Shown piece after piece: positions 2,701-15,746 of a DNA stretch of 64,000 nt. The position numbers and the translations under genes are program-made. The stretch covers positions 682,001-746,000 of the forward strand of contig NZ_CP040818.1 of assembly GCF_005887635.2 (NCBI RefSeq), written 5' to 3'. The stretch's first letter is position 1, and the number at the start of each line of letters is the position of its first letter. The notes beneath the pieces are model-generated. The model made no database searches. It was given only the letters and a program-made list of their open reading frames with translations, and was not told where the DNA came from. This stretch comes from Paroceanicella profunda. Its GTDB lineage: Bacteria; Pseudomonadota; Alphaproteobacteria; Rhodobacterales; Rhodobacteraceae.

Positions 2701-2822
2701 GCGGCGCCCTGCCCCGGGCCCGTGAAACCGGGCCGCCGGACCCGGCCTGCCCGGGCCGCGGCGCCCCGGGGGGCCTGCCCCGCGCGCGCGCCCGGCGGAA
2801 TGCGCGGAAGAGTGCACGGGGG

Positions 2823-2834
2823 AGTGCTTGCACT
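2823..2834. promoter_or_regulatory. Palindrome AGTGC-TT-GCACT, possible operator
   Basis: A perfect 5+2+5 inverted repeat, with three further outer pairs after one mismatch, lies about 70 bases before the ureohydrolase start, in the only upstream region of the catabolic island. It could be a regulator binding site or a small hairpin; nothing in the sequence decides which. Confidence 0.25.
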
Positions 2835-2901
2835 TCCCTCCCGCGTGGGGTTGACTGGCGCCCGAGCCGCCCACCCTCCCTGCCCTGACCCCGAGAGAAC
2901 C

Positions 2902-3945
2902 ATGACCTGGGACGCCGACAAACTCGCCGCCATCCGTGCGAAATATGAACAGGCGGAGGTCGGCGCGATGCATGACCCCCGCTTCGCCCGCGTGGCGGAG
3001 AAGATCTTCTCCGGCGGCACGCGGACCACGCCGTGGTCCGGCATCCCCACCCTGCTCGACGCCCCCGCCCTCGCTCCCGGCGCGGAAGGATACGAGGCGC
3101 TGCAGGTGGCCCTTGTCGGCGTGCCGATGGACCTCGGCATCACGAACCGCAACGGCGCGCGCTTCGGCCCCCGCGCCCTGCGCGGGCTGGAGCGCATCGG
3201 GCCCTACAACCACGTGCTGGACGTCGCACCGGTGCAGGAACTGCGCGTCGCGGACACCGGCGACATCCGCTTCCGCTCGCGCTACCAGCTCGAGGAAAGC
3301 CATCAGGACATCGAGGCGCACATCGCCACCCTCGTGGCCAACGGCACCCTGCCGCTCAGCGTGGGCGGCGACCATTCCATCTCCGGCCCGATCCTGAAGG
3401 CGGTGGGCGCGACGGCGCCCGTGGGCCTCATCCACATCGACGCGCATTGCGACACCTCGGGCCCCTTCGACGGCACCAAGTTCCACCACGGCGGCCCGTT
3501 CCGCAACGCGGTGCTCGACGGCGCGCTGGACCCGACGCGGACCATCCAGATCGGCATCCGCGGCTCCTCCGAATACCTGTGGGAGTTCTCCTACGACACC
3601 GGCATGACCGTGATCCACGCCGAGGAGGTGACCGGCCTCGGCCTTCCCGCCATCATCGCGCGGGCGCGGGAGATCGTCGGCGACGGCCCCACCTATGTCT
3701 CCTTCGACATCGACAGCCTGGACCCCTCCTTCGCCCCGGGCACCGGCACGCCGGAGGTGGGCGGCCTCACCACCCGCGAGGTGCTGGAGCTGATCCGCGG
3801 CCTGAAGGGCATCAACATCGTCGGCGGTGACGTGGTGGAGGTGGCCCCGCAATACGATGCCACCACCAACACCGCGCATGCCGGCGCGCAGGTGCTGTTC
3901 GAGATCCTCAGCCTGATGGCCTTCAGCCCGGCACTGAAGCCCTGA
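2902..3945 (+). CDS. Ureohydrolase (agmatinase / guanidinobutyrase / guanidinopropionase type)
   Basis: Binuclear-manganese hydrolase that would cut a guanidino compound into urea and an amine. The 347-residue product has the family metal motifs in order: GGDHS at 155-159, HIDAHCD at 178-184 and FDIDSLDP at 268-275. ATG at 2902 is preferred over a 60-codon longer frame, whose extra segment is proline/arginine-rich and does not look like protein. The HIDAHCD motif and the about 60-residue N-terminal extension differ from the second ureohydrolase in the window (59428-60381), so the substrate is probably not simple agmatine; guanidinobutyrate or guanidinopropionate are candidates. It opens the same-strand catabolic island. 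Confidence 0.88.
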   Translation: MTWDADKLAAIRAKYEQAEVGAMHDPRFARVAEKIFSGGTRTTPWSGIPTLLDAPALAPGAEGYEALQVALVGVPMDLGITNRNGARFGPRALRGLERIGPYNHVLDVAPVQELRVADTGDIRFRSRYQLEESHQDIEAHIATLVANGTLPLSVGGDHSISGPILKAVGATAPVGLIHIDAHCDTSGPFDGTKFHHGGPFRNAVLDGALDPTRTIQIGIRGSSEYLWEFSYDTGMTVIHAEEVTGLGLPAIIARAREIVGDGPTYVSFDIDSLDPSFAPGTGTPEVGGLTTREVLELIRGLKGINIVGGDVVEVAPQYDATTNTAHAGAQVLFEILSLMAFSPALKP

Positions 3946-4057
3946 TCCGCCCGCCCCGGGCGCGCGCCCCTCACCGGGCCGCACCCCGGCCCGCGGCGGC
4001 ACCTGCCCCCTCCCCCGGCCGGGGCCCGGCTCCCGGCCTCCCAGACGGAGACCCGCG

Positions 4058-4828
4058 ATGCGACTGTCCCTCCGCCAGACCCTGCCGGACACCGGCAACG
4101 TCTCCGCGAACCTCGGCCTGATCTCCCGCGCGGCGAAGGCCGCTGCGCGGGGCGGGGCGGAGCTGCTCCTGCTCCCCGAGCTGGTGACCACCGGCTACGG
4201 CGCCGGCATCGAGGCGCTCTCCCGCCTCGCCGAACCGGCAGACGGCCCCACGGTGGCCGCGCTGGCGCGCATCGCGGCGGAAACCGGCGTGGCCCTGATC
4301 GCCGGCTTTCCGGAGCGCGCGGGAGAGCGGGTCTACAATTCCGCCGTCTTCACCAACGGGGCGGATGCGCCTTCCGTCTACCGCAAGTCGCATGTCTACG
4401 GGGATTACGAGCGCGCGGTCTTCACCGCCGGCGAGCCCGCGACCTGCCTGGTCAAGCACGCCGGCATCACCCTCGGCCTGCTGATCTGCTACGATGTTGA
4501 GTTCCCGGAGAACACCCGCCGGCTGGCCCTGGCGGGGGCGGAGCTGATCTGCGTGCCCACCGCCCTGCCGGACCTGCCGGGCTGCCATTTCGTCGCCCGC
4601 CAGATGATCCCGGTGCGCGCCTTCGAGAACCAGGTCTTCGTGGCCTATGCCGACCATGCCGGCGCGGAGGGGGACTTCCACTATCCCGGCCTGTCCTGCG
4701 TCGCGGCGCCGGATGGCGGCATTCTCGCCCGTGCCGGCTCCCGCCCGGCCAGCCTCTCCGCCGAGATCGAACCCGCGGCCTATGCCGCCTCGCGCGCCGA
4801 GAACACCTACCTGCGCGACACCCGCTGA
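4058..4828 (+). CDS. Nitrilase-superfamily carbon-nitrogen hydrolase (amidase)
   Basis: Cytosolic hydrolase of amides or carbamoyl compounds. The Glu-Lys-Cys triad is visible: Glu41 in LLLLPELVTTGYG, Lys110 in VYRKSHVYGDYE and Cys144 in LLICYDVEFPEN. At 256 residues it is a stand-alone CN-hydrolase domain. Downstream of a ureohydrolase, an N-carbamoylputrescine amidase or omega-amidase type role in amine breakdown is plausible, but the substrate cannot be read from the sequence. It starts 112 bases after the ureohydrolase. Confidence 0.88.
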   Translation: MRLSLRQTLPDTGNVSANLGLISRAAKAAARGGAELLLLPELVTTGYGAGIEALSRLAEPADGPTVAALARIAAETGVALIAGFPERAGERVYNSAVFTNGADAPSVYRKSHVYGDYERAVFTAGEPATCLVKHAGITLGLLICYDVEFPENTRRLALAGAELICVPTALPDLPGCHFVARQMIPVRAFENQVFVAYADHAGAEGDFHYPGLSCVAAPDGGILARAGSRPASLSAEIEPAAYAASRAENTYLRDTR

Positions 4829-5022: not shown

Positions 5023-6552
5023 ATGATCCGCACCGGCGCCGAATACCGCGACTCGATCCGCGGCACCCGCGACATCTACATCGACGGCGAGAAGGTCTCC
5101 GACGTCACCGCCCACCCCTCGTTCCGGCCCATCGTGGACATCCGCGCCCGCATCTACGACATGCAGCACGAGGCCGCCTTCCGCGACGTGATGACCTGCG
5201 AGGAGAACGGCGAGCGCAACGCCGTGGGCAACAAGCTGCCCCGCACCCAGCAGGACTGGTGGGACAAGCGCCGCGCCACCGACACGGTGCTGAACGAAGT
5301 CTCCGGCGTCGTCACCCGCGTGGGCGACGAGACCGTGGGCGAGATGTGGTCGCTCTACGACGGGCAGGACGTGCTGGCCGAGATCGACCCCGCCTTCGCC
5401 CGCAACATCGAGACGCATATCCACAAGGTGCTGCGCGAGGACCCGTTCCACGTCTCCGCGAACACGGACCCGAAGGGCGACCGCTCCAAGGCCCCGCAGG
5501 ACCAGGACCCCGACATGCTCCTGCACGTGGTGAAGGAGACCGATGCGGGCATCGTGGTGCGCGGCGCGAAATACGAGACCGCCGCCGCCTACGCGAACCA
5601 GGCCTTCACCAAGCCCACCATCGCCAACTGGGGCAATGCCGCGCTGTCGGACTATGCCGTGGGCTTCATCTGCGACCTGAATTCGCCGGGGCTGAAGTTC
5701 ATCTGCCGCTCGGGCTTTGCCGGAAAGGCCCCGGCGGATTACCCGCTCGCCACGCGGTTCGACGAGGTCGACACGCTGGTGATCTTCGACAACGTGCTGA
5801 TCCCGTGGGAGAACGTGCTCTTCTACCGGCACACGAAGGCCGCCACCTTCATCCGCGCCACGCTGCACCGCTACTCGGCCTTCGCCTTCGTGCAGCGCAA
5901 CCTCAAGGTGGCGGACATGATGATCGGCGCGGCCCTGTTCAACGCCCGCCAGACCGGGCTCGACAAGCAGCAGGCGGTGCAGGAGAAGCTCGCCGAGCTG
6001 GCCTGCTACCGCGAGATGATCAACGCGCACCTCACCGCCGCCATCACCCTGGCCGAACCTTCGCCCTCCGGGCTGCTGATGCCCAACCAGTCGCTGCTCT
6101 ACACCGGGCGCTACCTGGCCTGCTCGCAGCTCCACCAGATGATGCACATCGCGCGCGAGCTCTGCGGCGGGCAGATCTGCGTCACGCCCAACGCCGCCAC
6201 CTTCGAGCACCCGGAGACGAAAGCCTTCCTGGAGAAATACTACTCGATCAACGACACCTGGGTGGCCGATGACCGGCGCCGGCTGCTGGCCTTCGCGCGC
6301 GACCTGCTGAACTCGGATTACGCGGGCCACCGGCTCACCTTCCAGCTCTTCGCCCAGTCGCCGCCGTTCAACCACCTCGCCGCCGTCTACCGCAATTTCG
6401 ACTGGGACGGGCCGCTCGCCTTCGTGAAGGAGAGCGCCGGCCTCTCCGACCGGGTGAACGGCGGCGCTGCCGGCACCCCGGCCGACAGCGCGGTGCGCCA
6501 GTATTTCTCCGGCCGCGACGCGGATGACGCGGCCCGCCGGGCGGCGGAGTGA
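5023..6552 (+). CDS. HpaB-type FADH2-dependent monooxygenase, oxygenase component
   Basis: 509-residue member of the 4-hydroxyphenylacetate 3-hydroxylase family, which uses reduced flavin supplied by a separate reductase to hydroxylate (usually phenolic) substrates. Family features are the opening RTGAEYRDSIRGTRDIYIDGEKV, the central FDNVLIPWENVLFYRH and the C-terminal region with CGGQICVTPN and EKYYSIND. The length is typical. The stop overlaps the start of the Rieske gene, and the flavin reductase fusion lies two genes on, giving a complete two-component system. An HpaB assignment proper is not justified because the ring substrate is unknown. The LysR-type palindrome at 4910-4932 probably controls it. 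Confidence 0.9.
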   Translation: MIRTGAEYRDSIRGTRDIYIDGEKVSDVTAHPSFRPIVDIRARIYDMQHEAAFRDVMTCEENGERNAVGNKLPRTQQDWWDKRRATDTVLNEVSGVVTRVGDETVGEMWSLYDGQDVLAEIDPAFARNIETHIHKVLREDPFHVSANTDPKGDRSKAPQDQDPDMLLHVVKETDAGIVVRGAKYETAAAYANQAFTKPTIANWGNAALSDYAVGFICDLNSPGLKFICRSGFAGKAPADYPLATRFDEVDTLVIFDNVLIPWENVLFYRHTKAATFIRATLHRYSAFAFVQRNLKVADMMIGAALFNARQTGLDKQQAVQEKLAELACYREMINAHLTAAITLAEPSPSGLLMPNQSLLYTGRYLACSQLHQMMHIARELCGGQICVTPNAATFEHPETKAFLEKYYSINDTWVADDRRRLLAFARDLLNSDYAGHRLTFQLFAQSPPFNHLAAVYRNFDWDGPLAFVKESAGLSDRVNGGAAGTPADSAVRQYFSGRDADDAARRAAE

Positions 6553-7721
6553 GCACGATGGGCCTCGACCTGCCCGCCCCCGCGCCTGCGTCCGACGACC
6601 CGTTCGAGGGGCTGCGCGCCGTCGCCGCCCTGCCCTTCGAGCGCGCGCGCTCCATGCCGCCCGCGGTCTACACCTCCCCCGCGTTCCACGCAGCGGAACA
6701 GCGCGGGATCTTCGCGCAGGACTGGATCTGTGTCGGCCGCGCCGGGCAGCTGGCGCGCCCCGGGGATTACCTCACCGCCGAGATAGCCGGCCAGCCGGTG
6801 ATCGTGCTGCGTGACGGCGAGGGCGCCATCCGCGCGCTGTCCAACGTCTGCCTGCACCGCATGTCGGTGCTGCTGGAGGGGGCGGGCAACACCCGCTCCA
6901 TCGTCTGCCCCTACCATGCCTGGACCTACAACCTCGACGGCAGCCTGCGCGGCGCGCCCATCATGTCCGACAACCTGGACTTCTGCCGTGATCAGCGCCT
7001 GCCGCAGCTGCGCGCCGAAGTCTGGCAGGGCTGGATCATGGTGACGCTGAACCCCGATGCCCCGCCGGTGGCCGAGCGCCTCGCCCGGCTGGAGCCGATG
7101 ATCGCGCCCTTCGGCCTTGCGGATTACACCGAGCTCTTCCACGAGACCCACCGCTGGGACACCAACTGGAAGGTGCTGTGCGAGAACTTCATGGAGAGCT
7201 ACCACCTGCCGGCCTGCCACGCCGGCACCATCGGCGGCGTGACGGAGATCGACGGGCATTTCTTCACCGAGGACGAGGAGGCCTTCAACCTCCACTACCT
7301 CACCAAGGACCCCTCCTTCGTGCTGGGCAACGCCCATCCCGACAACACCCGCCTCACCGGGGAGTGGCGCGGGCGCACGGCGATCGTGGCGGTCTACCCC
7401 TCGCTGCTGATCACCGCCACGCCGGGGTATTTCTGGTATCTCTCGCTGCTGCCGCACGGCACGGGCCAGGTGGACATCACCTTCGGCGGCGGACTGGCGC
7501 CCGAATTCGTCGGCGCGCCGGAGGCCAGGGAGAGTTTCGCGAAGCTCCACGCCCTGCTCACCGAGGTGAACAGGGAGGACCGGGGCTGCACCGAGCGGGT
7601 GTTCCGCGGGCTGAACGCGCCGCTGGCGAAGGCCGGGCACCTGAGCCGGCTCGAGCGGCCGCTCTACGATTTCGCGCAGTTCCTCGCCGCCCGGCTCGCG
7701 CCCGGGCCGGCGCGGGGCTGA
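6549..7721 (+). CDS. Rieske non-heme iron oxygenase, alpha subunit
   Basis: Oxygenase that hydroxylates or N-demethylates a small molecule using a Rieske 2Fe-2S centre and a mononuclear iron. The 2Fe-2S ligands are Cys101, His103, Cys120 and His123. The iron site reads CENFMESYHLPACH with His219 and His224; the bridging residue is Glu216 rather than the usual Asp, as in carnitine and glycine-betaine oxygenases (family knowledge). The GTG start overlaps the previous stop (GTGA); an ATG three codons later is possible. No ferredoxin or Rieske reductase gene lies nearby, so its electron donor is missing from the window. Confidence 0.92.
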   Translation: MSTMGLDLPAPAPASDDPFEGLRAVAALPFERARSMPPAVYTSPAFHAAEQRGIFAQDWICVGRAGQLARPGDYLTAEIAGQPVIVLRDGEGAIRALSNVCLHRMSVLLEGAGNTRSIVCPYHAWTYNLDGSLRGAPIMSDNLDFCRDQRLPQLRAEVWQGWIMVTLNPDAPPVAERLARLEPMIAPFGLADYTELFHETHRWDTNWKVLCENFMESYHLPACHAGTIGGVTEIDGHFFTEDEEAFNLHYLTKDPSFVLGNAHPDNTRLTGEWRGRTAIVAVYPSLLITATPGYFWYLSLLPHGTGQVDITFGGGLAPEFVGAPEARESFAKLHALLTEVNREDRGCTERVFRGLNAPLAKAGHLSRLERPLYDFAQFLAARLAPGPARG

Positions 7722-7888
7722 GGGCGGGGCGCGCGCGGCAACCGGCCATCCGCGGGGGTTGCGCCGCCCCCGGCCGGCGGACATGGTGTGCCGGCCCCGA
7801 GGGGGCACCCCGACGCCCCCGTTTCCGTCCGATCCGGACCGCGCTCCGCCTCCCGCCGGCCCGGCCCGAGCCCCATGCAGGTAAGACC

Positions 7889-9046
7889 ATGACAGCAGCA
7901 GCCCTCCGCGAACAGTTCATCAACGGCATGAGCCGCGCCGCCTGCACCGTGAACGTGGTGACCACGGACGGGCCGGCGGGGCGCGGCGGCGTCACCGTCT
8001 CGGCCATGTCCTCGGTCTCCGCCGACACGCCCCGGCCCACGCTGCTGGTGTGCGTGAACCGCACCGCCTCGGCCGCCGCCGCCATCCTGGAGAACGGCGT
8101 GTTCTGCGTGAACGTGCTGCGCGACGACCAGTCCTACATCTCCGACACGTTCGCGGGCCGCTTCCGCGACCGGCACCCGGACAAGTTCTCCTGCGCCGAA
8201 TGGGTGACGATGGCCTCCGGCGCGCCGCGGGTGCGCGACCCGCTGGTGGCTTTCGACTGCAAGGTGATCTCGTCGGAGCTGGTGGGCACCCACCACGTGC
8301 TGTTCGGCGAGGTGGGAGACCTTTTCGTGGCCGAGAGCGGCTCGCCGCTGCTCTATGCCGGCCGGTCCTACGGCGCGGCCTCGCGCATCGACAGCATCGA
8401 GCGCGCCGGGCTGGAGGCGAAGACGCAGCTCTCCGTCGCCTGTTTCCACTCCTTCGGCCCGCATGTGCTGCCGCAGCTCATCGCGAAGCTCACCCGCGCG
8501 CCGGAGCCGGTGCATGTGAACATCATCGAGGGCGACCAGCGCCGCATCCGCGAGGCGCTGATCTCCGGGGAAGCGGAGATCGGCCTCACCTATGCCGATG
8601 ACATCGCCGAGGATCTTGCCTGGGAGCCGCTCACCGAGCTTGCCCCCTACGTGCTGCTGCCCGAGGGCCACCTGCTCACCGAGAAGCGCGAGATCACCCC
8701 GCAGGACCTCGCCTCCGAGCCGATGGTGCTGCTCGACGGCACCCCGAGCCGGGACTACTTCCCCGACATCCTGCGCGCCGCCGGCGTGGAGCCGCGCATC
8801 GGCTGGCGATCCGCCAGTTTCGAGACGGTGCGCGGGCTGGTCGGCCAGGGGCTGGGCTATGCCTTGCTCGCCACCAGGCCGGCGGCGCCGGTCTCCTATG
8901 ACGGCAGCCGGCTGGCGATCCGGCCGCTGGCCTGCGACGCCCCGCCCTCGCGCATCGTCTTCGCCACCCGCCGCGGCGCCCGCCTCTCTCCGGCCGCGGA
9001 GGAATTCGCCTGGATGGCGCGCGACGCCTTCACCCTCGACGTCTGA
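7889..9046 (+). CDS. Flavin reductase fused to a LysR-type substrate-binding domain
   Basis: 385-residue two-domain protein. Residues 1-165 are an HpaC/flavin-reductase-like FMN-binding domain (GGVTVSAMSSVSADTP then LLVCVN at 34-56; SPLLYAGRSYGA at 152-163), expected to supply reduced flavin to the monooxygenase encoded at 5023. Residues about 179-385 are a LysR-family effector-binding domain with no helix-turn-helix. This domain aligns by eye with the sensor of the LysR regulator at 10307: both have LAPY, LP-GH, DLA, VLLD, SRDYF and PRI in the same order and spacing. The reading frame is continuous, so this is a true fusion. The start is set by GTAAGACC-ATG. By analogy with the effector-gated C1 reductase of Acinetobacter, which has a MarR-like tail, a ligand-gated reductase is inferred. 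Confidence 0.88.
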   Translation: MTAAALREQFINGMSRAACTVNVVTTDGPAGRGGVTVSAMSSVSADTPRPTLLVCVNRTASAAAAILENGVFCVNVLRDDQSYISDTFAGRFRDRHPDKFSCAEWVTMASGAPRVRDPLVAFDCKVISSELVGTHHVLFGEVGDLFVAESGSPLLYAGRSYGAASRIDSIERAGLEAKTQLSVACFHSFGPHVLPQLIAKLTRAPEPVHVNIIEGDQRRIREALISGEAEIGLTYADDIAEDLAWEPLTELAPYVLLPEGHLLTEKREITPQDLASEPMVLLDGTPSRDYFPDILRAAGVEPRIGWRSASFETVRGLVGQGLGYALLATRPAAPVSYDGSRLAIRPLACDAPPSRIVFATRRGARLSPAAEEFAWMARDAFTLDV

Positions 9047-9066: not shown

Positions 9067-9480
9067 TTGGCCCATACCCGCATCCGCCCCTTCAACACGA
9101 AGGACACCTACCCCGAGCAGCGCCTCGACAACGACCTCAGCCACGCGGTCATCGCCCGCGGCACCACGGTGTTCCTGCGCGGCCAGTGCCCGCAGGACCT
9201 CGACACCGGCGAGAACATCGCCTCGATGGACCCGGGCGAGCAGGCCCACAAGGTGATGCAGAACATCGGCCAGCTGCTGGGCGAGTGCGGCGCGGACTGG
9301 GGCCATGTGACCAAGCTGGTGGTCTACCTCACCGACGTGCGCCACCGCGAGGCCGTCTACCGCACGATGGGGGATTACATCCGCGGCGTGCACCCGGTGT
9401 GCACCGGGCTCGTGGTCGTCGCCCTCGCCCGGCCCGAATGGCTGGTGGAGATCGACGCGACCGCCGTCATTCCCGACTGA
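9067..9480 (+). CDS. RidA/YjgF-family enamine-imine deaminase-like protein
   Basis: 137-residue RidA-fold protein; the family hydrolyses reactive enamine/imine intermediates and often accompanies amine or amino-acid oxidation genes. Typical elements are FLRGQCPQDLDTGENI at about residues 36-51, QNIGQLLGECGADWGHVTKLVVYLTD in the middle and HPVCTGLVVVALARPEWLVEIDATAV at the C terminus, with the conserved Arg107-like position replaced in a divergent stretch. The start is TTG at 9067, 20 bases after the reductase fusion; no in-frame ATG fits better. A role in cleaning up imines made by the amine-oxidising enzymes of this island is inferred. Confidence 0.85.
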   Translation: MAHTRIRPFNTKDTYPEQRLDNDLSHAVIARGTTVFLRGQCPQDLDTGENIASMDPGEQAHKVMQNIGQLLGECGADWGHVTKLVVYLTDVRHREAVYRTMGDYIRGVHPVCTGLVVVALARPEWLVEIDATAVIPD

Positions 9481-9565
9481 GGCGCCCCGCCCGCCCCCTC
9501 CCGGACCGGACCCGGGCCGGGACACCGGCCCGCCTGCCCCCGCCATCTTCCCACGGAGCGCCGAC

Positions 9566-10240
9566 ATGACCTTCTCCATCACCGCCCGTTGCGCCGAAAC
9601 CGGCATGTTCGGCACCGCCGTCAGCTCCTCCTCCCCCGCCGTGGCGGCGCGCTGCGCCTATGCCCGGGCCGGGGTGGGCGCGGTGGCGAGCCAGAACGTG
9701 ACGGACCCCACCCTGGGCCCCCGCGCGCTGGACCTGCTGGCCGCCGGCGCCACGGCGGCGGAGACGGTCGCCATCCTCGCGCGCAGCGCCGCCTTCCCGG
9801 AGTATCGCCAGCTTCTGGTGGTGGACGCGGCCGGCGGTTCGGCCATCCACTCCGGCCCGCAGGCGCTCGGCACCTGGGCCGAGGCGCGGGGCGACAACGT
9901 GGCCTGCGGCGGCAACCTGCTCGCCGACCCGGGCGTGCCCGCGGCGATGGTCGCGGCCTTCACCGCCTCCTCCGGGCCGCTGGGCGACCGCCTGCTCACC
10001 GCCATGCGCGCCGCCCTGACCGCGGGAGGCGAGGCAGGTCCGGTGCATTCCGCCGGGCTCCTCCTGGTGCGCGACGTGCCCTGGCCCGTGGCGGACCTGC
10101 GCGTGGACTGGAGCGAGGCGTGCCCCGTCACCGGGCTGGAACGGCTCTGGGAGATCTACCGCCCGCAGCTCGACGCCTATGTCACCCGCGCGCTGGACCC
10201 CCGGGCCGCGCCGAGCTACGGCGTGCCCGGCGACGAATGA
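9566..10240 (+). CDS. DUF1028 family protein (Ntn-hydrolase-like)
   Basis: 224-residue protein of the DUF1028 family, recognised from TFSITARCAETGMFGTAVSSSSPAVAARC at the start and the central GNLLADPGVPAAMVAAF. The family is thought to adopt an Ntn-hydrolase-like fold and is often encoded with amidases, RidA proteins and peptidases, but its reaction is not established. It lies 85 bases after ridA on the same strand and is presumably an amidohydrolase of the same pathway. Confidence 0.85.
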   Translation: MTFSITARCAETGMFGTAVSSSSPAVAARCAYARAGVGAVASQNVTDPTLGPRALDLLAAGATAAETVAILARSAAFPEYRQLLVVDAAGGSAIHSGPQALGTWAEARGDNVACGGNLLADPGVPAAMVAAFTASSGPLGDRLLTAMRAALTAGGEAGPVHSAGLLLVRDVPWPVADLRVDWSEACPVTGLERLWEIYRPQLDAYVTRALDPRAAPSYGVPGDE

Positions 10241-10273
10241 CAGACGTCCTGCGCCGCCGGGCAGAGCATGATT

Positions 10274-10294
10274 GCACCGGCGCCGGCCCGGTGC
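10274..10294. promoter_or_regulatory. Inverted repeat GCACCGG-N7-CCGGTGC before the LysR gene
   Basis: A perfect 7+7+7 inverted repeat ends 12 bases before the LysR gene start. It has the same 7-base spacing as the palindrome at 4910-4932 but a different sequence. It could serve autoregulation or be a leader hairpin covering the start region. Confidence 0.3.
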
Positions 10295-10306
10295 GAACAT
10301 CCGCCG

Positions 10307-11233
10307 ATGGCAACGCGATTCACCCTGCGGCAACTCGAATATCTGGTGGCCGTCGGCGAGGCGGGGAGCATCGCGCGCGCCTCGGCGCGCATCCATGTCT
10401 CGCCGCCCTCCATCTCCACCGCCATCGCGCAGCTGGAAGCGGAGTTCGGCCTGCAGCTCTTCATCCGCCGGCACAGCCACGGGCTGGCGCTCACGCCCGG
10501 GGGGCGGCGCTTCTTCCTCGCCGCGCGCCAGCTTCTGGCGGAGGCGGAGGGGCTGCACGCCCTGGCCGGCGACATCTCCGAGCAGGTGCGCGGGCCCCTG
10601 GGCCTGGGCTGCCTGCTCACCGTGGCCGAGACCGTGCTGCCCGACCTGCGCCGCGGCTTCGAGGCCGCCTGGCCCGGGGTGCGCATCTCCCAGCACATCG
10701 ACAACCAGCAGCGGCTGATCGACCTCATGCTGTGTGGCGAGATCGACGCCGCGCTCACCTACGACATGGACATCCCGCCGGAGATCGGCTTCGACCCGGT
10801 CGCGACCCTGGCGCCCTACGCGGTGCTGCCGGCCGGGCACCGGCTGGCGGAGCGCAGGACCGTCCGTCTGGAGGACCTTGCCACCGCGAAGCTGGTGCTG
10901 CTCGACCTGCCCTTCAGCCGGGACTATTTCCTCGGCCTGTTCTCCGCCTGCGGGCTGGCGCCGCGCATCGCCGAGCGGGCCGGCGATATGGCGATGATGC
11001 GCGCCATGGTGGCCAACGGCTTCGGCTATTCGCTGGCCAACGTGCCGCCGCGCTCCGCCCTCTCGCCCGACGGAAAGCCGCTCGCGCATGTGGCGCTGGA
11101 GGGCCGGCACCGGCCGCTGGCCCTCGGCCTCGCCCGCCCGGTGAGCGGCCGGCAGAGCCGCGCCCTCGCCGCCTTCGCCGCCCATTGCCACGCCACCCTG
11201 CCGCACAGCCTGTCCGGCGCGGCGCTCACCTGA
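10307..11233 (+). CDS. LysR family transcriptional regulator
   Basis: 308-residue DNA-binding regulator. The winged helix-turn-helix is residues about 4-62 (FTLRQLEYLVAVGEAGSIARASARIHVSPPSISTAIAQLE), followed by a linker helix and a substrate-binding domain from about residue 90. ATG at 10307 is preferred because the helix-turn-helix begins immediately after it; the in-frame start 13 codons upstream adds an unrelated tail. The sensor domain is closely related to the C-terminal half of the flavin reductase fusion at 7889. It probably controls the island through sites such as 4910-4932. Confidence 0.93.
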   Translation: MATRFTLRQLEYLVAVGEAGSIARASARIHVSPPSISTAIAQLEAEFGLQLFIRRHSHGLALTPGGRRFFLAARQLLAEAEGLHALAGDISEQVRGPLGLGCLLTVAETVLPDLRRGFEAAWPGVRISQHIDNQQRLIDLMLCGEIDAALTYDMDIPPEIGFDPVATLAPYAVLPAGHRLAERRTVRLEDLATAKLVLLDLPFSRDYFLGLFSACGLAPRIAERAGDMAMMRAMVANGFGYSLANVPPRSALSPDGKPLAHVALEGRHRPLALGLARPVSGRQSRALAAFAAHCHATLPHSLSGAALT

Positions 11234-11258
11234 CGCCACCCATCCATCGGGGAGCCTG

Positions 11259-12293
11259 ATGAAGACCGTTCATACCGAAAAGCACCGCCTGCGCGCCTCG
11301 AAGACCGAGCTCAACGGCGGCCAGCTCGTGCCGCCCTTCGAATGCCCCGAGCGGGTGGAGCACATCCTGGCCGAACTCGCCGCGCGCCGCCACGGCGAGA
11401 TCGTCGCGCCCGATGCCTTCGGCCTCGCCCCCGTGCGCCGCATCCATGACGGCGCCTATCTCGACTTCCTCTCCACCTGCTGGGAGGAGTGGCAGGCCGC
11501 GGGCTATGCCGGCGAGGCGATCGCCACCACCTGGCCCTCGCGCCGCATGCCGCTGTCGCGCCCGCCGCGCGAGATCGACGGGCGCATCGGCTACTACTGC
11601 CTCGCGGCGGAAACCTCGATCTCCGGCGGCACCTGGGAGGCGGCACAGGCCGCGGCCGACGTGGCGCTCACCGGCCAGGCGCTGGTGGCGGGCGGCGCAC
11701 GCGCCGCCTTCGCCCTGTGCCGCCCGCCCGGCCACCACGCGGCGCAGGACATGTTCGGCGGCTACTGCTTCCTCAACAACGCCGCCATCGCCGCCCAGGC
11801 CTTCCGCGACCAGGGCGCGGCGCGCGTGGCGGTGCTCGACGTGGACTTCCACCACGGCAACGGCACCCAGGCGATCTTCTATGACCGCCCGGACGTGCTG
11901 TTCCTCTCGCTCCACGGCGACCCGGACGAGGCCTTCCCCTATTTCCTCGGTGCCGCCGACGAAACCGGCACCGGCGCGGGCGAGGGCTTCAACGTGAACT
12001 ACCCGCTCGCCCCCGGCACCGCCTACCCCGCCTGGGCCGAGGCGCTGGAGAACGCGCTCGCCCGCATCCGCGCCTATGGGGCGGAGGCGGTGGTGGTCTC
12101 GCTCGGCCTCGACACGTTCAAGGAGGACCCGATCAGCTTCTTCAAACTCGAGAGCGCCGATTTCACCGATTACGGCCGCCGCATCGCGCGGCTCGGCCTG
12201 CCCACGCTCTTCGTGCTGGAGGGCGGCTATGCCGTGGCCGAGGTGGGCATCAACACCGTGAACGTGCTCACCGGCTTCGAGGAGGAGGCATGA
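11259..12293 (+). CDS. Histone-deacetylase-fold amidohydrolase (acetylpolyamine amidohydrolase-like)
   Basis: 344-residue zinc hydrolase of the arginase/deacetylase superfamily that removes acetyl (or other acyl) groups from amines. Motifs in order: RPPGHHA at about residues 155-161 (the His-His pair), GGYCFLNNAAIAA at 167-179, VDFHHGNGTQAIFY at 195-208 with the Asp-His zinc ligands, SLGLDTFKEDP with the third metal ligand, and EGGYAV with the catalytic Tyr. The MKTVHTEKHRLRASKTELNGG opening is typical of bacterial acetylpolyamine amidohydrolases. It overlaps the next gene by four bases (ATGA), so the two are coupled. Confidence 0.9.
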   Translation: MKTVHTEKHRLRASKTELNGGQLVPPFECPERVEHILAELAARRHGEIVAPDAFGLAPVRRIHDGAYLDFLSTCWEEWQAAGYAGEAIATTWPSRRMPLSRPPREIDGRIGYYCLAAETSISGGTWEAAQAAADVALTGQALVAGGARAAFALCRPPGHHAAQDMFGGYCFLNNAAIAAQAFRDQGAARVAVLDVDFHHGNGTQAIFYDRPDVLFLSLHGDPDEAFPYFLGAADETGTGAGEGFNVNYPLAPGTAYPAWAEALENALARIRAYGAEAVVVSLGLDTFKEDPISFFKLESADFTDYGRRIARLGLPTLFVLEGGYAVAEVGINTVNVLTGFEEEA

Positions 12294-14365
12294 GCCGGCC
12301 CGCCGCCCACGACATCCTGTTCGAGCCGGTGCAGATCGGCCCGGTGACGGCGAAGAACCGCTTCTTCCAGGTGCCGCATTGCAACGGTGGCGGCTACCGC
12401 GACCCCTCGGCCGTGGCCGAGATGCGCCGGGTGAAGGCCGAAGGCGGCTGGGGCGTGATCTTCACCGAGCAGGTCGAGATCCACCACAGCGCCGAGATCA
12501 CCCCCTGGATCGAGCTGCGCCTGTGGGAGGAGGGCGACATGCCCGCCCTCGCCCGCATGGCCGAGGCGATGAAATCCCACGGTGCGCTGGCCGGTATCGA
12601 GCTGGTGCACCCGGGGGTGAACGCGCCCAACCTCTACTCCCGCGCCGTGCCGCTCGCCCCCACCGCCCTGCCGATCCGCACCTTCACCAACGACCCCGTG
12701 CAGGCCCGCGCCATGGACCGCGAGGACATCCGCGACCTGCGCCGCTGGCACCGTACCGCCGTCCGCCGCGCGAAGGCCTGCGGCTTCGACCTCGTCTGCC
12801 TCTACGGCGCGCACGGGTTCGGCATCATCCAGCACTTCCTCTCCCGCGCCACCAACCAGCGCGGCGACGCGTACGGCGGCAGCCTGGAGAACCGCTCCCG
12901 CCTGCTGCGCGAGCTGGTGGAGGACGCCCGGGAGGAGATCGGCGACACCTGCGGCATCTCCCTGCGCCTGTCGCTGGACGAGGTGGTGGGGGATCTGGGC
13001 TTCTCCAACGCCGAGCTGCGCGACCTCATCGAGATGCACGCCGAGCTGCCGGACCTCTGGGACCTCGCGCACGGCTCCTGGGAGGAGTGCTCAGGCCCCT
13101 CGCGCTTCACGGGCGAGGCGGCGCAGGAGGGGCTGGTGACCGGCATCCGCGCCCTCACCCCGAAGCCCGTGGTGGGCGTGGGCCGCTTCACCTCACCGGA
13201 CGAAATGGCCCGGCAGGTGCGCGCCGGCATCCTCGATTTCATCGGCTGCGCCCGCCCCTCCATCGCCGACCCGTTCCTGCCGAAGAAGGTGGAGGAGGGC
13301 CGGTCCGACGAGATCCGCGAGTGCATCGGCTGCAACATCTGCGTGACGGGCGACATGACCGCCTCGCTGTCGCGCTGCACGCAAAACCCCGCCTTCATGG
13401 AGGAATGGCGCCGCGGCTGGCACCCGGAGCGCGCGCCGGCGCGCGGGGCCTCGCGAAACGTGCTGGTGGTGGGCGCGGGCCCGGCCGGGCTGGAGGCCGC
13501 CCGGGTTCTGGGCCTGCGCGGCTACGAGGTGGCGCTGGCGGAGGCCGGCACCGCGCTCGGCGGCCGGGTGGCGCGCGAATGCCGCCTGCCCGGCCTCGCC
13601 GCCTGGGGGCGCGTGCGCGACTACCGCGCCGCCGCCATCGGCCGGATGCCGAACGTCTCGGTCTATTTCGACAGCGCGCTCACCGCCGATGACGTGCTGG
13701 AGTTCGGCTTCGAGCATGTCTGCATCGCCACCGGCGCGGTGTGGCGGGCCGATGGCGTGGCGCGTCAGCACGTGGTGCCGATGCCCGTGGACCCCGCGAT
13801 GCCGGTCTTCACCCCGGATGACGCGATGGCCGGGCGCCTGCCCTCCGGCCGGGTGGTGGTCTATGACGATGACCACTACTACATGGGCGGCGTGATGGCC
13901 GAGCTGCTGGTGCAGGCGGGCTGCACGGTCACGCTGGTCACCCCGGCCGCCCGGGTGTCGGACTGGACCTGGAACACGCTGGAGCAGGCGGGCGTCCACC
14001 GCCGGCTTGCCGGGCTGGGGGTGGAGATCGTGCTCAACCGCGGCGTGGCGCGCATCCGCGCCGACCATGTGGTGACCAGTTGCACCTATACCGGTGCCGA
14101 GGCCGCGCTGCCGGCCGATGCGGTGATGATGGTCGGCTCGCGCAGCCCGGCCGGCACGCTCTGGCCGGAGCTGAAGGCGCGGCAGGCGGAGTGGGCGGCG
14201 GCCGGCATCCGCTCGCTGCGCGCCATCGCGGATGCCGAGGCCCCCGGCCCGATCGCCTGGGCGACCTGGGCCGGGCAGAACTACGCCCGGGCCCTGGATG
14301 GGGAGGCCCCGGGCGACGCCCCGCCCTTCCGCCGCGAAATCGCCGCCCTCGCCCCGCCCGCCTGA
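12290..14365 (+). CDS. Trimethylamine dehydrogenase-like iron-sulfur flavoprotein
   Basis: 691-residue enzyme with an N-terminal old-yellow-enzyme barrel, a 4Fe-4S site and C-terminal nucleotide-binding domains (VLVVGAGPAGLEAARVLG at about 384-401). It resembles trimethylamine and dimethylamine dehydrogenases and DgcA-type proteins. Cys31 in QVPHCNGGG matches the residue that carries covalent 6-S-cysteinyl FMN, and Cys345, 348, 351 and 363 (CIGCNIC plus CTQN) match the cluster ligands. Of the three aromatic cage residues remembered for trimethylamine dehydrogenase (Tyr60, Trp264, Trp355), only the Trp264 equivalent is evident; position 61 is Gln and the region around 355 lacks Trp. An oxidative demethylation or deamination of a different amine is inferred. 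Confidence 0.88.
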   Translation: MSRPAAHDILFEPVQIGPVTAKNRFFQVPHCNGGGYRDPSAVAEMRRVKAEGGWGVIFTEQVEIHHSAEITPWIELRLWEEGDMPALARMAEAMKSHGALAGIELVHPGVNAPNLYSRAVPLAPTALPIRTFTNDPVQARAMDREDIRDLRRWHRTAVRRAKACGFDLVCLYGAHGFGIIQHFLSRATNQRGDAYGGSLENRSRLLRELVEDAREEIGDTCGISLRLSLDEVVGDLGFSNAELRDLIEMHAELPDLWDLAHGSWEECSGPSRFTGEAAQEGLVTGIRALTPKPVVGVGRFTSPDEMARQVRAGILDFIGCARPSIADPFLPKKVEEGRSDEIRECIGCNICVTGDMTASLSRCTQNPAFMEEWRRGWHPERAPARGASRNVLVVGAGPAGLEAARVLGLRGYEVALAEAGTALGGRVARECRLPGLAAWGRVRDYRAAAIGRMPNVSVYFDSALTADDVLEFGFEHVCIATGAVWRADGVARQHVVPMPVDPAMPVFTPDDAMAGRLPSGRVVVYDDDHYYMGGVMAELLVQAGCTVTLVTPAARVSDWTWNTLEQAGVHRRLAGLGVEIVLNRGVARIRADHVVTSCTYTGAEAALPADAVMMVGSRSPAGTLWPELKARQAEWAAAGIRSLRAIADAEAPGPIAWATWAGQNYARALDGEAPGDAPPFRREIAALAPPA

Positions 14366-14570
14366 CCCCTCCGGCCGGAGCCGCCCGGCCGGACCCGGCG
14401 CGGAGTGCACGCCCGGGCACGATGCTCCGGCGCCCCCGCCCGGGACGCCGCGGGGACGTCCGCATTCCCCCCCCCTGCGCCCCGAGCGTCAGACTTCCCG
14501 GCCCCGGCACGCCTGTGATACCCGTGAAGGGGCCACCCCCGAGCCCCGCGACACCGACAAGGACCCGCCC

Positions 14571-15746
14571 ATGGCAGACCGCATGACCCCCCGTGAGATG
14601 CTGGAGCGTCTCGTCGCCTTCCCCACCGTCTCGCGTGACAGCAATCTCGACCTCATCCACTGGGTGCGCGACTACCTCGCCGGCCACGGTGTGGAGGCCA
14701 CGCTGGTCCCCAGCCCGGACGGGCAGAAGGCCAATCTCTACACCCAGATCGGCCCGGACGTGGCCGGCGGCGTGGTGCTCTCCGGCCATACCGACGTGGT
14801 GCCGGTGGACGGGCAGGACTGGTCTACCGACCCCTGGGTGGTGACCGAGCGCGACGGGCTGCTCTACGGTCGCGGCACCTGCGACATGAAGGGCTTCGTG
14901 GCCATCGCGCTCGCCCTGGTGCCGGAGATGCTGGAGGCCGGGCTGAAGACGCCGGTGCAGCTCGCGCTCTCCTATGACGAGGAGGTCGGCCACCTGGGCG
15001 TGCCCTTCCTGATCACCGAGATGCAGGCCGCCCTGCCGCCCGCCGCCTGCGTGCTGGTCGGCGAGCCGACGATGATGCAGGTGGTGAGCCAGCACAAGGG
15101 CGGGGTGGCGATCACCACCCATGTCCACGGCTACGAGGTGCATTCCTCCCGCGTGCATGAGGGGGTCTCGGCCATCACCTGGGCCGCGAAGCTGATCAAC
15201 TGGCACGCCGAGCAGATGGAGGCGAACCGGCTGGAGGCCGAGCGGCTGGGCGCCGACGGCCTCGGCGCCGATTTCGACCCGCCCTACACCACCCTGCACA
15301 ACGGGCTCATCCAGGGCGGCACGGCCGGAAACATCACCGCGAAGGACTGCATCTTCTCCACCGACATCCGGGTGCTGCCGCTGGAGAGCGCGCAGGACTG
15401 GCTGCAGCGCTACCAGAGCCATTGCGCCGAGCTCACCCGCCAGATGCAGGCCATCCATCCCGATGCCTGGATCGAGGTGCAGGTGCGTGTGGTCAACGAG
15501 GGCTGCCGCAAGGAGCCGGAGGGCACGGCGGAGAGCTTCGCCCGGGCGCTGACGGGCGACAACGCCGAGCACGCGGTCTCCTACGGCACCGAGGCGAGCA
15601 ACTTCCAGCGCGAGGGCTTCTCCGTCTGCGTGATCGGACCGGGCGACATCGCCCAGGCCCACAAGCCGGACGAGTTCCTCTCCCTCGAACAGCTCGAAGC
15701 CGGCACGGACTTCATGCGCCGCCTGATCGCCCGCCTCTCCGCCTGA
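14571..15746 (+). CDS. argE: M20-family deacetylase (acetylornithine deacetylase, ArgE-like)
   Basis: 391-residue zinc aminoacylase. Metal and catalytic motifs are SGHTDVVPVDG near residue 71 onward, GRGTCDMKG near 101, and YDEEVGHLG near 138, where Glu is the catalytic base. ATG at 14571 is set by good alignment of the N terminus (MTPREMLERLVAFPTVSRDSN), not by the longer upstream frame. It is called acetylornithine deacetylase by overall likeness, but it lies 205 bases after an amine-catabolic cluster and could deacylate a pathway intermediate instead. Confidence 0.85.
   Translation: MADRMTPREMLERLVAFPTVSRDSNLDLIHWVRDYLAGHGVEATLVPSPDGQKANLYTQIGPDVAGGVVLSGHTDVVPVDGQDWSTDPWVVTERDGLLYGRGTCDMKGFVAIALALVPEMLEAGLKTPVQLALSYDEEVGHLGVPFLITEMQAALPPAACVLVGEPTMMQVVSQHKGGVAITTHVHGYEVHSSRVHEGVSAITWAAKLINWHAEQMEANRLEAERLGADGLGADFDPPYTTLHNGLIQGGTAGNITAKDCIFSTDIRVLPLESAQDWLQRYQSHCAELTRQMQAIHPDAWIEVQVRVVNEGCRKEPEGTAESFARALTGDNAEHAVSYGTEASNFQREGFSVCVIGPGDIAQAHKPDEFLSLEQLEAGTDFMRRLIARLSA

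Follow-up and report, generated by a model that had tools for sequence, protein, structure and literature searches.

The window, a stretch of 64,000 nucleotides from Paroceanicella profunda, carries a gene cluster in the order HpaB, Rieske, fusion, RidA, DUF1028, LysR, histone-deacetylase-like, OYE-like and M20, in which a flavin reductase is joined to the effector-binding domain of a LysR-type regulator. The features are listed below by position in the window, all on the forward (+) strand.

5023..6552, +: HpaB-like oxygenase of 509 aa (PF11794 and PF03241), likely user of reduced flavin
6549..7721, +: Rieske oxygenase alpha-subunit-like protein of 390 aa (PF00355 and PF00848), possible second user
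7889..9046, +: fusion of a flavin reductase and a LysR-type effector-binding domain in one gene, 385 aa
7889..8383, +: reductase half, residues 1-165, CobR/TftC/HpaC/RutF-like (PF01613, solved relatives, dN/dS 0.18)
8384..8419, +: probable flexible linker, residues 166-177 (low pLDDT; 9 of 12 residues, or 75%, identical to Oceanicella)
8420..9043, +: HinK-like sensor half (residues 178-385), a LysR effector-binding domain lacking the helix-turn-helix
9067..9480, +: RidA-family protein (PF01042), likely counterpart of HinL (enamine deaminase), adjoining DUF1028 in hin-like clusters
9566..10240, +: DUF1028 protein (PF06267), at the position of HinH (amidase) by the order of hin-like clusters
10268..11233, +: full-length LysR (HTH_1 and LysR_substrate), HinK-like, paralogue of the sensor half
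14595..15746, +: M20/ArgE-type hydrolase, likely HinG counterpart, located by tblastn with the M20 protein of locus L028 (PF01546 and PF07687)

The frame 7889-9046 is translated on the forward strand without a stop into 385 amino acids. By Pfam search, Flavin_Reduct (PF01613) was identified at residues 14-163 with an E-value of 3.1e-32 and 112.2 bits against a cutoff of 27, covering positions 1-151 of the 153-position profile, and LysR_substrate (PF03466) at residues 178-381 with an E-value of 5.7e-40 and 137.4 bits against a cutoff of 28, covering positions 5-208 of 209. HTH_1 was not found in the fusion by the same Pfam search that detected HTH_1 in the neighboring LysR (10268-11233), and the protein thus shares PF03466 with LysR-type transcriptional regulators but is devoid of their N-terminal HTH_1. 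The initial annotation, which had described a single unbroken frame with a reductase half, a LysR half at residues 179-385 and no DNA-binding domain, and had proposed a domain search and a structure prediction as checks, is borne out on each of these points. In the AlphaFold model both folds were obtained with a mean pLDDT of 80.7 and a pTM of 0.53. Because residues 151-177, including the end of the reductase domain, have pLDDT below 50 and the pTM is 0.53, the relative placement of the two domains is undefined in the model, which, with a linker predicted to be disordered, shows no surface on which the domains could dock for allostery.

The reductase half shares its fold and 38-42% of its residues with 3cb0, 3k86 and 2r0x, the closest relatives of solved structure; these belong to the RutF/HpaC/CobR/TftC group, but their chains are single-domain proteins of 158-185 residues. 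The fusion scores below the NCBIfam equivalog cutoffs for both RutF (148.6 versus 254.75) and HpaC (107.3 versus 205.95). The reductase half is presumed to be active. Against Oceanicella sp. SM1341, in which the same fusion is 90% identical, the reductase half of the window gene (codons 1-165) has a dN/dS of 0.18 and the sensor half (codons 178-385) one of 0.23; the corresponding values are 0.15 in HpaB (first 480 codons) and 0.17 in the effector part of the neighboring LysR (190 codons). Both halves of the fusion are under purifying selection, and neither is decaying. An artefact of assembly or frame is ruled out by the conserved relatives, including that of Oceanicella, and the 385-codon frame is confirmed as a real two-domain protein.

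Among the best 120 of 1553 matches (E ≤ 1e-3), the query included, all 119 other relatives carry both Pfam domains. A total of 31 of 394 genomes of the same family gave a match at E ≤ 1e-50, consisting of 19 full-length fusions (that of the window among them), a further fusion broken by a stop codon (G559), and 11 matches to the reductase half only. At the class level, five matches were obtained at 1e-60 in 289 genomes, three of them fused including this one, and at the phylum level nine matches at 1e-50 in 398 genomes, of which four, again with this one included, are fused and all belong to the same class. Plasmid records yielded seven matches at E ≤ 1e-40, six covering 80% or more of the protein and the seventh representing the reductase alone; in three Paracoccus plasmid copies the annotated genes follow one another as 4-hydroxyphenylacetate 3-hydroxylase family protein, RidA, DUF1028, acetylornithine deacetylase, LysR and, at the end, the fusion. 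In L092 (2251-3409) the fusion is interrupted, indicating that it can be lost while the cluster remains; this gene was omitted from the tree of reductase halves, and the sensor trees include just the uninterrupted part of its sensor. The sequence of L115 was cut at its stop codon, and L060 represents the same place as L011.

Among solved structures, the nearest to the sensor half both by sequence and by fold is HinK, with 37% identity over 199 positions. On the same alignment the neighboring LysR is 31% identical to the sensor half, and the 31 compared among the 72 other LysR_substrate matches of this genome reach at most 25%. The neighboring LysR is itself closest to HinK (6m5f, E 1.9e-59; next other protein, 2ql3, E 2.7e-26), and aligns with the fusion at 34% identity over 202 positions (E 9e-31). 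In an 83-row tree of effector domains, which covers 31 out of this genome's 72 other LysR_substrate matches, one group (94/84) holds 32 fused sensors, 18 cluster LysRs, HinK, Rhodococcus 2ql3 and one other LysR of the same genome, and this HinK-containing group stands apart from 30 other LysRs of the genome. In this tree 28 fused sensors cluster with weak support (89/50), while the four from a cluster type with a glutamine-synthetase-like protein are separate.

The conserved positions of the sensor half, which we take to line the cleft from the general LysR fold as in BenM-type complexes, include 188 (T/S), 235 (Y), 287 (S), 290 (Y), 291 (F) and 315 (R), common to most of 27 fused sensors and HinK, and also to most of the 18 cluster LysRs. 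E312, G316 and T329 are present in all 27 fused sensors and HinK but in few cluster LysRs. The four fused sensors of the glutamine-synthetase cluster deviate at 235, 287, 290, 291 and 329. A cleft kept in one pathway and altered in another would be the behavior expected of a ligand-specific gate. HinK is described as a Pseudomonas LysR regulator of histamine catabolism that binds imidazole-4-acetic acid between its two lobes, with a response at micromolar concentrations in DNA-binding tests and a measured affinity for imidazoleacetate of only 1.56 mM (PMC8231116). The sensor half resembles HinK in the fold of the effector domain, in the likely cleft residues and in the presence of imidazole-type pathway genes near the fusion, but HinK is a DNA-binding activator and the fusion has no helix-turn-helix. 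Since 37% identity is too low, the ligand cannot be fixed from the kinship to HinK, and imidazoleacetate is put forward as the candidate that the sensor sequence would suggest.

The same kinship could be read differently: the LysR half might pair with the adjacent HinK-like regulator and dampen or tune transcription by reporting the state of flavin or NADH, instead of acting on the reductase. LysR effector domains normally dimerize, among the other proteins of its own genome the sensor half is matched best by the adjacent LysR (97 bits versus 61 for the next), which belongs to the same group of the tree, and E312, V314, R315 and V318 are invariant across 42 fused proteins. This explanation is nevertheless considered improbable, because a HinK-like LysR accompanies the fusion in just 14 of 31 intact fused loci (some contigs being short), none was detected near the fusions of a second subfamily (L058 and L093-L095), and the reductase half is conserved at least as well as the sensor half, for which a pure regulator would have no need.

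The identity of the pathway was approached from the DUF1028 protein, which was searched against 349 Pseudomonadota genomes; 50 places were obtained and 20 loci were read. A flavin monooxygenase (FMO) with 59-70% identity to the L028 protein at 6921-8261 was found in 17 of the 20 loci and RidA in 19; L187 carries RidA, DUF1028 and M20 but no FMO, and L186 an FMO but no RidA. In half of the loci (10 of 20; L176-L184 and L190) the genes follow the order FMO-RidA-DUF1028-M20 with no other recognized gene between them, and L179-L183 and L190 have a nearby LysR that shares 55-79% identity with the P. aeruginosa HinK effector domain. Two alphaproteobacterial clusters, L191 and L194, also contain an aldehyde dehydrogenase, as HinD would require. 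The histamine operon of P. putida is given as hinFLHG (PMC8231116), in which HinF (AWA45229) is listed as FAD-monooxygenase (EC 1.14.13.5), HinL (AWA45230) as enamine deaminase, and HinH (AWA45227) and HinG (AWA45228) each as amidase (PMC6467879, Table 3). The order and families of the DUF1028 loci agree with hinFLHG, the likeness being drawn from the listed functions and, for HinK alone, from sequence comparison; by this analogy the L028-type FMO would be HinF and the DUF1028 protein HinH.

In the window, RidA, DUF1028, the M20 hydrolase and the HinK-like LysR all lie within 9067-15746, so that the hin-type gene set is complete for these four, with RidA and DUF1028 adjacent and in the order of hin-like clusters. 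The window differs from hinFLHG, the Pseudomonas operon for converting imidazoleacetate to aspartate, in that LysR, histone-deacetylase-like and OYE-like genes intervene between DUF1028 and M20, and in that HpaB, the fused reductase and the Rieske protein stand in place of the HinF-like FMO. A HinF-like single-component FMO is absent from this genome, the sole match at E ≤ 1e-40 being 43% identical over residues 136-433 of 446. As part of the best explanation, the window cluster may be regarded as an alphaproteobacterial variant of the hin pathway. The homarine pathway, which was suggested by the combination of Rieske protein and RidA in Rhodobacteraceae, was also considered and rejected, as no usable literature support was found for it.

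The HpaB-like protein itself argues against a phenol substrate. The R-Y-H residues are described as the phenol-binding triad of HpaB (PMC10816480), and R100, Y104 and H142 of Thermus thermophilus HpaB align with R99, E103 and S145 of the protein at 5023-6552. Neither mark of an HpaB phenol 3-hydroxylase, the equivalog score together with the R-Y-H residues, was found in full, with a score of 245.6 against the HpaB-1 equivalog cutoff of 480.2 and one of the three residues kept. The loss of two of the three phenol-binding residues makes phenols unlikely as substrates of this oxygenase. On the ligand the initial annotation needs to be corrected: since the sensor is HinK-like, the cluster is similar to the hin2 operon for histamine and imidazoleacetate, and one of the three phenol-binding residues is retained in the HpaB-like protein, an imidazole carboxylate makes a better candidate than phenols.

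The link of the fusion to the HpaB-like gene, likewise proposed at the outset, is supported by gene neighborhoods. Within up to about 10 kb on each side of 31 intact fused loci, RidA and DUF1028 were each found in at least 19, the HpaB ortholog and M20 each in at least 16, the HinK-like LysR in at least 14, the Rieske protein in at least 10, the HinF-like FMO in at least five, and a pair of acyl-CoA-dehydrogenase-like and glutamine-synthetase-like proteins in at least four, all these counts being minima, since a number of contigs break off close to the fusion (for instance L032 and L038). A HinF-like FMO (at least 64% identity) is present in four of 17 cluster-bearing genomes with an HpaB ortholog versus eight of nine without (n = 26; Fisher p = 0.003, with no correction for kinship). 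Among DUF1028-anchored loci, all four with HpaB and none of the 19 without it have the reductase (p = 1e-4), where the 23 loci comprise the 20 fetched plus the window, L097 and L040, the last three known beforehand to hold a reductase; with these three removed, the HpaB-positive loci with reductase are one of one. Absence of the reductase here means that tblastn with the reductase half gave no match at E ≤ 1e-2 over about 12 kb. Taken together, the contrast between HinF and HpaB and the tracking of HpaB by the reductase make it the simplest reading that HpaB with the fused reductase does the job of HinF, and HpaB is inferred to be the main client of the reductase.

An association with HpaB is not universal, and the reductase might instead serve the Rieske protein or free flavin in general, with the sensor answering another compound of the cluster. 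Of the 25 searched genomes that carry an intact fusion, nine gave no HpaB match at E ≤ 1e-20 (one of them, G096, being 77% complete), and in three more the HpaB match is distant only. L028, L029, L030, L086 and L087 carry the HinF-like FMO, the Rieske protein and the fusion with no HpaB in locus or genome; in these five and in L031 the fusion adjoins the Rieske gene without HpaB. In three other HpaB-less genomes (L012, L036 and L088) none of the cluster genes were found nearby. HpaB-type enzymes, however, require a flavin reductase, while Rieske oxygenases normally use iron-sulfur electron carriers, and none of the HpaC-like reductases known to us serves a Rieske protein. Together with the restriction of the reductase to the HpaB-positive DUF1028 loci, and with its absence from L193, the only Rieske locus without HpaB among the 23, this leaves service to the Rieske protein or free flavin with little likelihood. 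As a separate observation, in L031 (10613-11721) the Rieske gene is apparently broken into two frames, and no RidA, DUF1028 or LysR was detected nearby; this locus may be a cluster in decay that has retained the fusion.

The sensor is not shared by all reductases of this group. Rhizobium sp. ACO-34A (L059) carries HpaB, a sensor-less reductase of 173 aa, RidA, DUF1028 and LysR, and equivalent clusters with a sensor-less reductase were also found in L097 and L188 (a frame of 213 codons). In the tree of reductase halves, four state changes (gain or loss) are needed, three of which are forced by well-supported branches. A single origin of all fused reductases was rejected on the basis of these four changes and of the AU test of one clade (p = 0.010), a test made after an earlier tree had been seen and with outgroup rows on very long branches. 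The sensor-less reductases of equivalent clusters and the four state changes indicate that the sensor is an option and not a necessity. Reduced flavin made 'only' when the substrate of HpaB is present, as initially proposed, is thus too strong a statement, given these reductases and the nine of 25 fusion genomes without HpaB.

An optional sensor is equally consistent with regulation and with a dispensable add-on. The LysR half could accordingly be a passive module that determines oligomeric state, stability or proximity to the oxygenase with no regulatory ligand, as might be suggested by the flexible appearance of the linker, by the sensor-less reductases of equivalent clusters, and by genome G372, in which the fused L037 (9432-10583) coexists with a closely related sensor-less reductase, L041 (4029-4559; 100/99 support in the reductase tree). 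Conservation of the likely cleft positions in agreement with HinK, and a dN/dS of the sensor close to that of the effector part of the neighboring LysR, speak against a passive role, which is regarded as rather unlikely, if less so than the two alternatives above.

Other arrangements of the reductase were also observed. In L040 (8168-10696) the reductase and RidA lie in one open frame with no ATG, GTG or TTG at the RidA end, apparently representing a reductase-RidA fusion in place of the sensor fusion. A second cluster type combines acyl-CoA-dehydrogenase-like and glutamine-synthetase-like proteins with a distant reductase (36-37%), which is fused in L058 (9001-10119), L093 (9059-10195), L094 (9096-10223) and L095 (8697-9824) and stands without the sensor in L103 (8534-9007) of the same glutamine-synthetase cluster type. 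The acyl-CoA-dehydrogenase-like protein of this type scores higher with acyl-CoA dehydrogenase than with monooxygenase models.

Based on these observations, the protein is best read as the reductase of a two-component HpaB-type monooxygenase in a variant of the hin pathway, in which the LysR half would gate flavin reduction in response to a pathway acid, a reading to which we assign a probability of about one in two. The HpaC/CobR-like half would reduce flavin with NAD(P)H, and the LysR-derived half would take up the pathway acid in its interlobe cleft, the likeliest ligand being imidazole-4-acetate or a compound closely analogous to it. Binding of the ligand may then change the rate of flavin reduction or release, so that reduced flavin, and the peroxide that is formed from it without substrate, would be made mainly when the oxygenase has work. 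The neighboring HinK-like LysR would read the same or a related metabolite for control of transcription, and one sensor fold could thereby exert two levels of control, on the genes and on the reductase. The fusion thus probably works mainly in the presence of an imidazole compound, a breakdown product of histamine. Wasteful flavin reduction and peroxide formation are a known weakness of two-component monooxygenases.

That ligand binding gates the reductase is proposed by analogy to C1 (AbHpaC), the reductase of Acinetobacter baumannii p-hydroxyphenylacetate 3-hydroxylase, and this comparison, drawn already in the initial annotation, is supported by the description of that system: C1 carries a MarR domain and its flavin reduction is stimulated by the substrate, a property called uncommon apart from AbHpaC (PMC10816480). 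In both proteins a flavin reductase is followed by a C-terminal sensing domain from a transcription-factor family, with a flavin-dependent oxygenase as partner. They differ in that the sensor of C1 is MarR and its ligand a phenol, while that of the fusion is a LysR effector-binding domain, with an HpaB-like protein as likely partner and gating that is predicted. The C1-type model NF045919 (NCBIfam) gave a score of 48.1 for the fusion against a cutoff of 340, over residues 13-172 only, and no MarR match was found in the fusion among Pfam and NCBIfam profiles, the C-terminal half being LysR_substrate. The fusion may function as C1 does, but because of its other sensor family and a score below the NF045919 cutoff, it is not a member of the C1 family.

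A gated reductase would in itself be of a type already known from C1, and the variant with a LysR sensor would be what is new here. No description of a fusion between flavin reductase and LysR effector domain was found in the open-licence literature as judged by titles and the beginnings of abstracts, and a search for the word 'LysR' in the review PMC10816480 and in another review gave no occurrence. If the gating holds true, a second, LysR-based solution exists and the gating of reductases has evolved independently, with the LysR sensor as an exchangeable part, the full-length fusion being carried by 19 of 394 genomes of the family. The cluster points furthermore to an HpaB-type enzyme as a likely alternative imidazoleacetate oxygenase of Alphaproteobacteria, and it hints at a part of the DUF1028 protein in the pathway. 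The wider proposal, that a LysR effector domain has left transcription to become the allosteric gate of an enzyme, that one imidazole metabolite switches both genes and electron supply, that HpaB replaces HinF, and that the sensor is a swappable module which otherwise equivalent reductases may have or lack and whose cleft residues differ in another pathway, is offered more tentatively, as somewhat less probable than the reading given above.

The cluster in the window is flanked, at 2722-4828 and 11259-14365, by agmatinase-like, carbon-nitrogen hydrolase, histone-deacetylase-like and OYE-like genes; as a guess, the flanking arginase-family enzyme could act on formimino-aspartate. Further upstream, at 71-2659, an antisense frame of 862 codons faces two long frames that were taken by eye for cydA and cydB; it is probably an effect of the high G+C content and not a gene.
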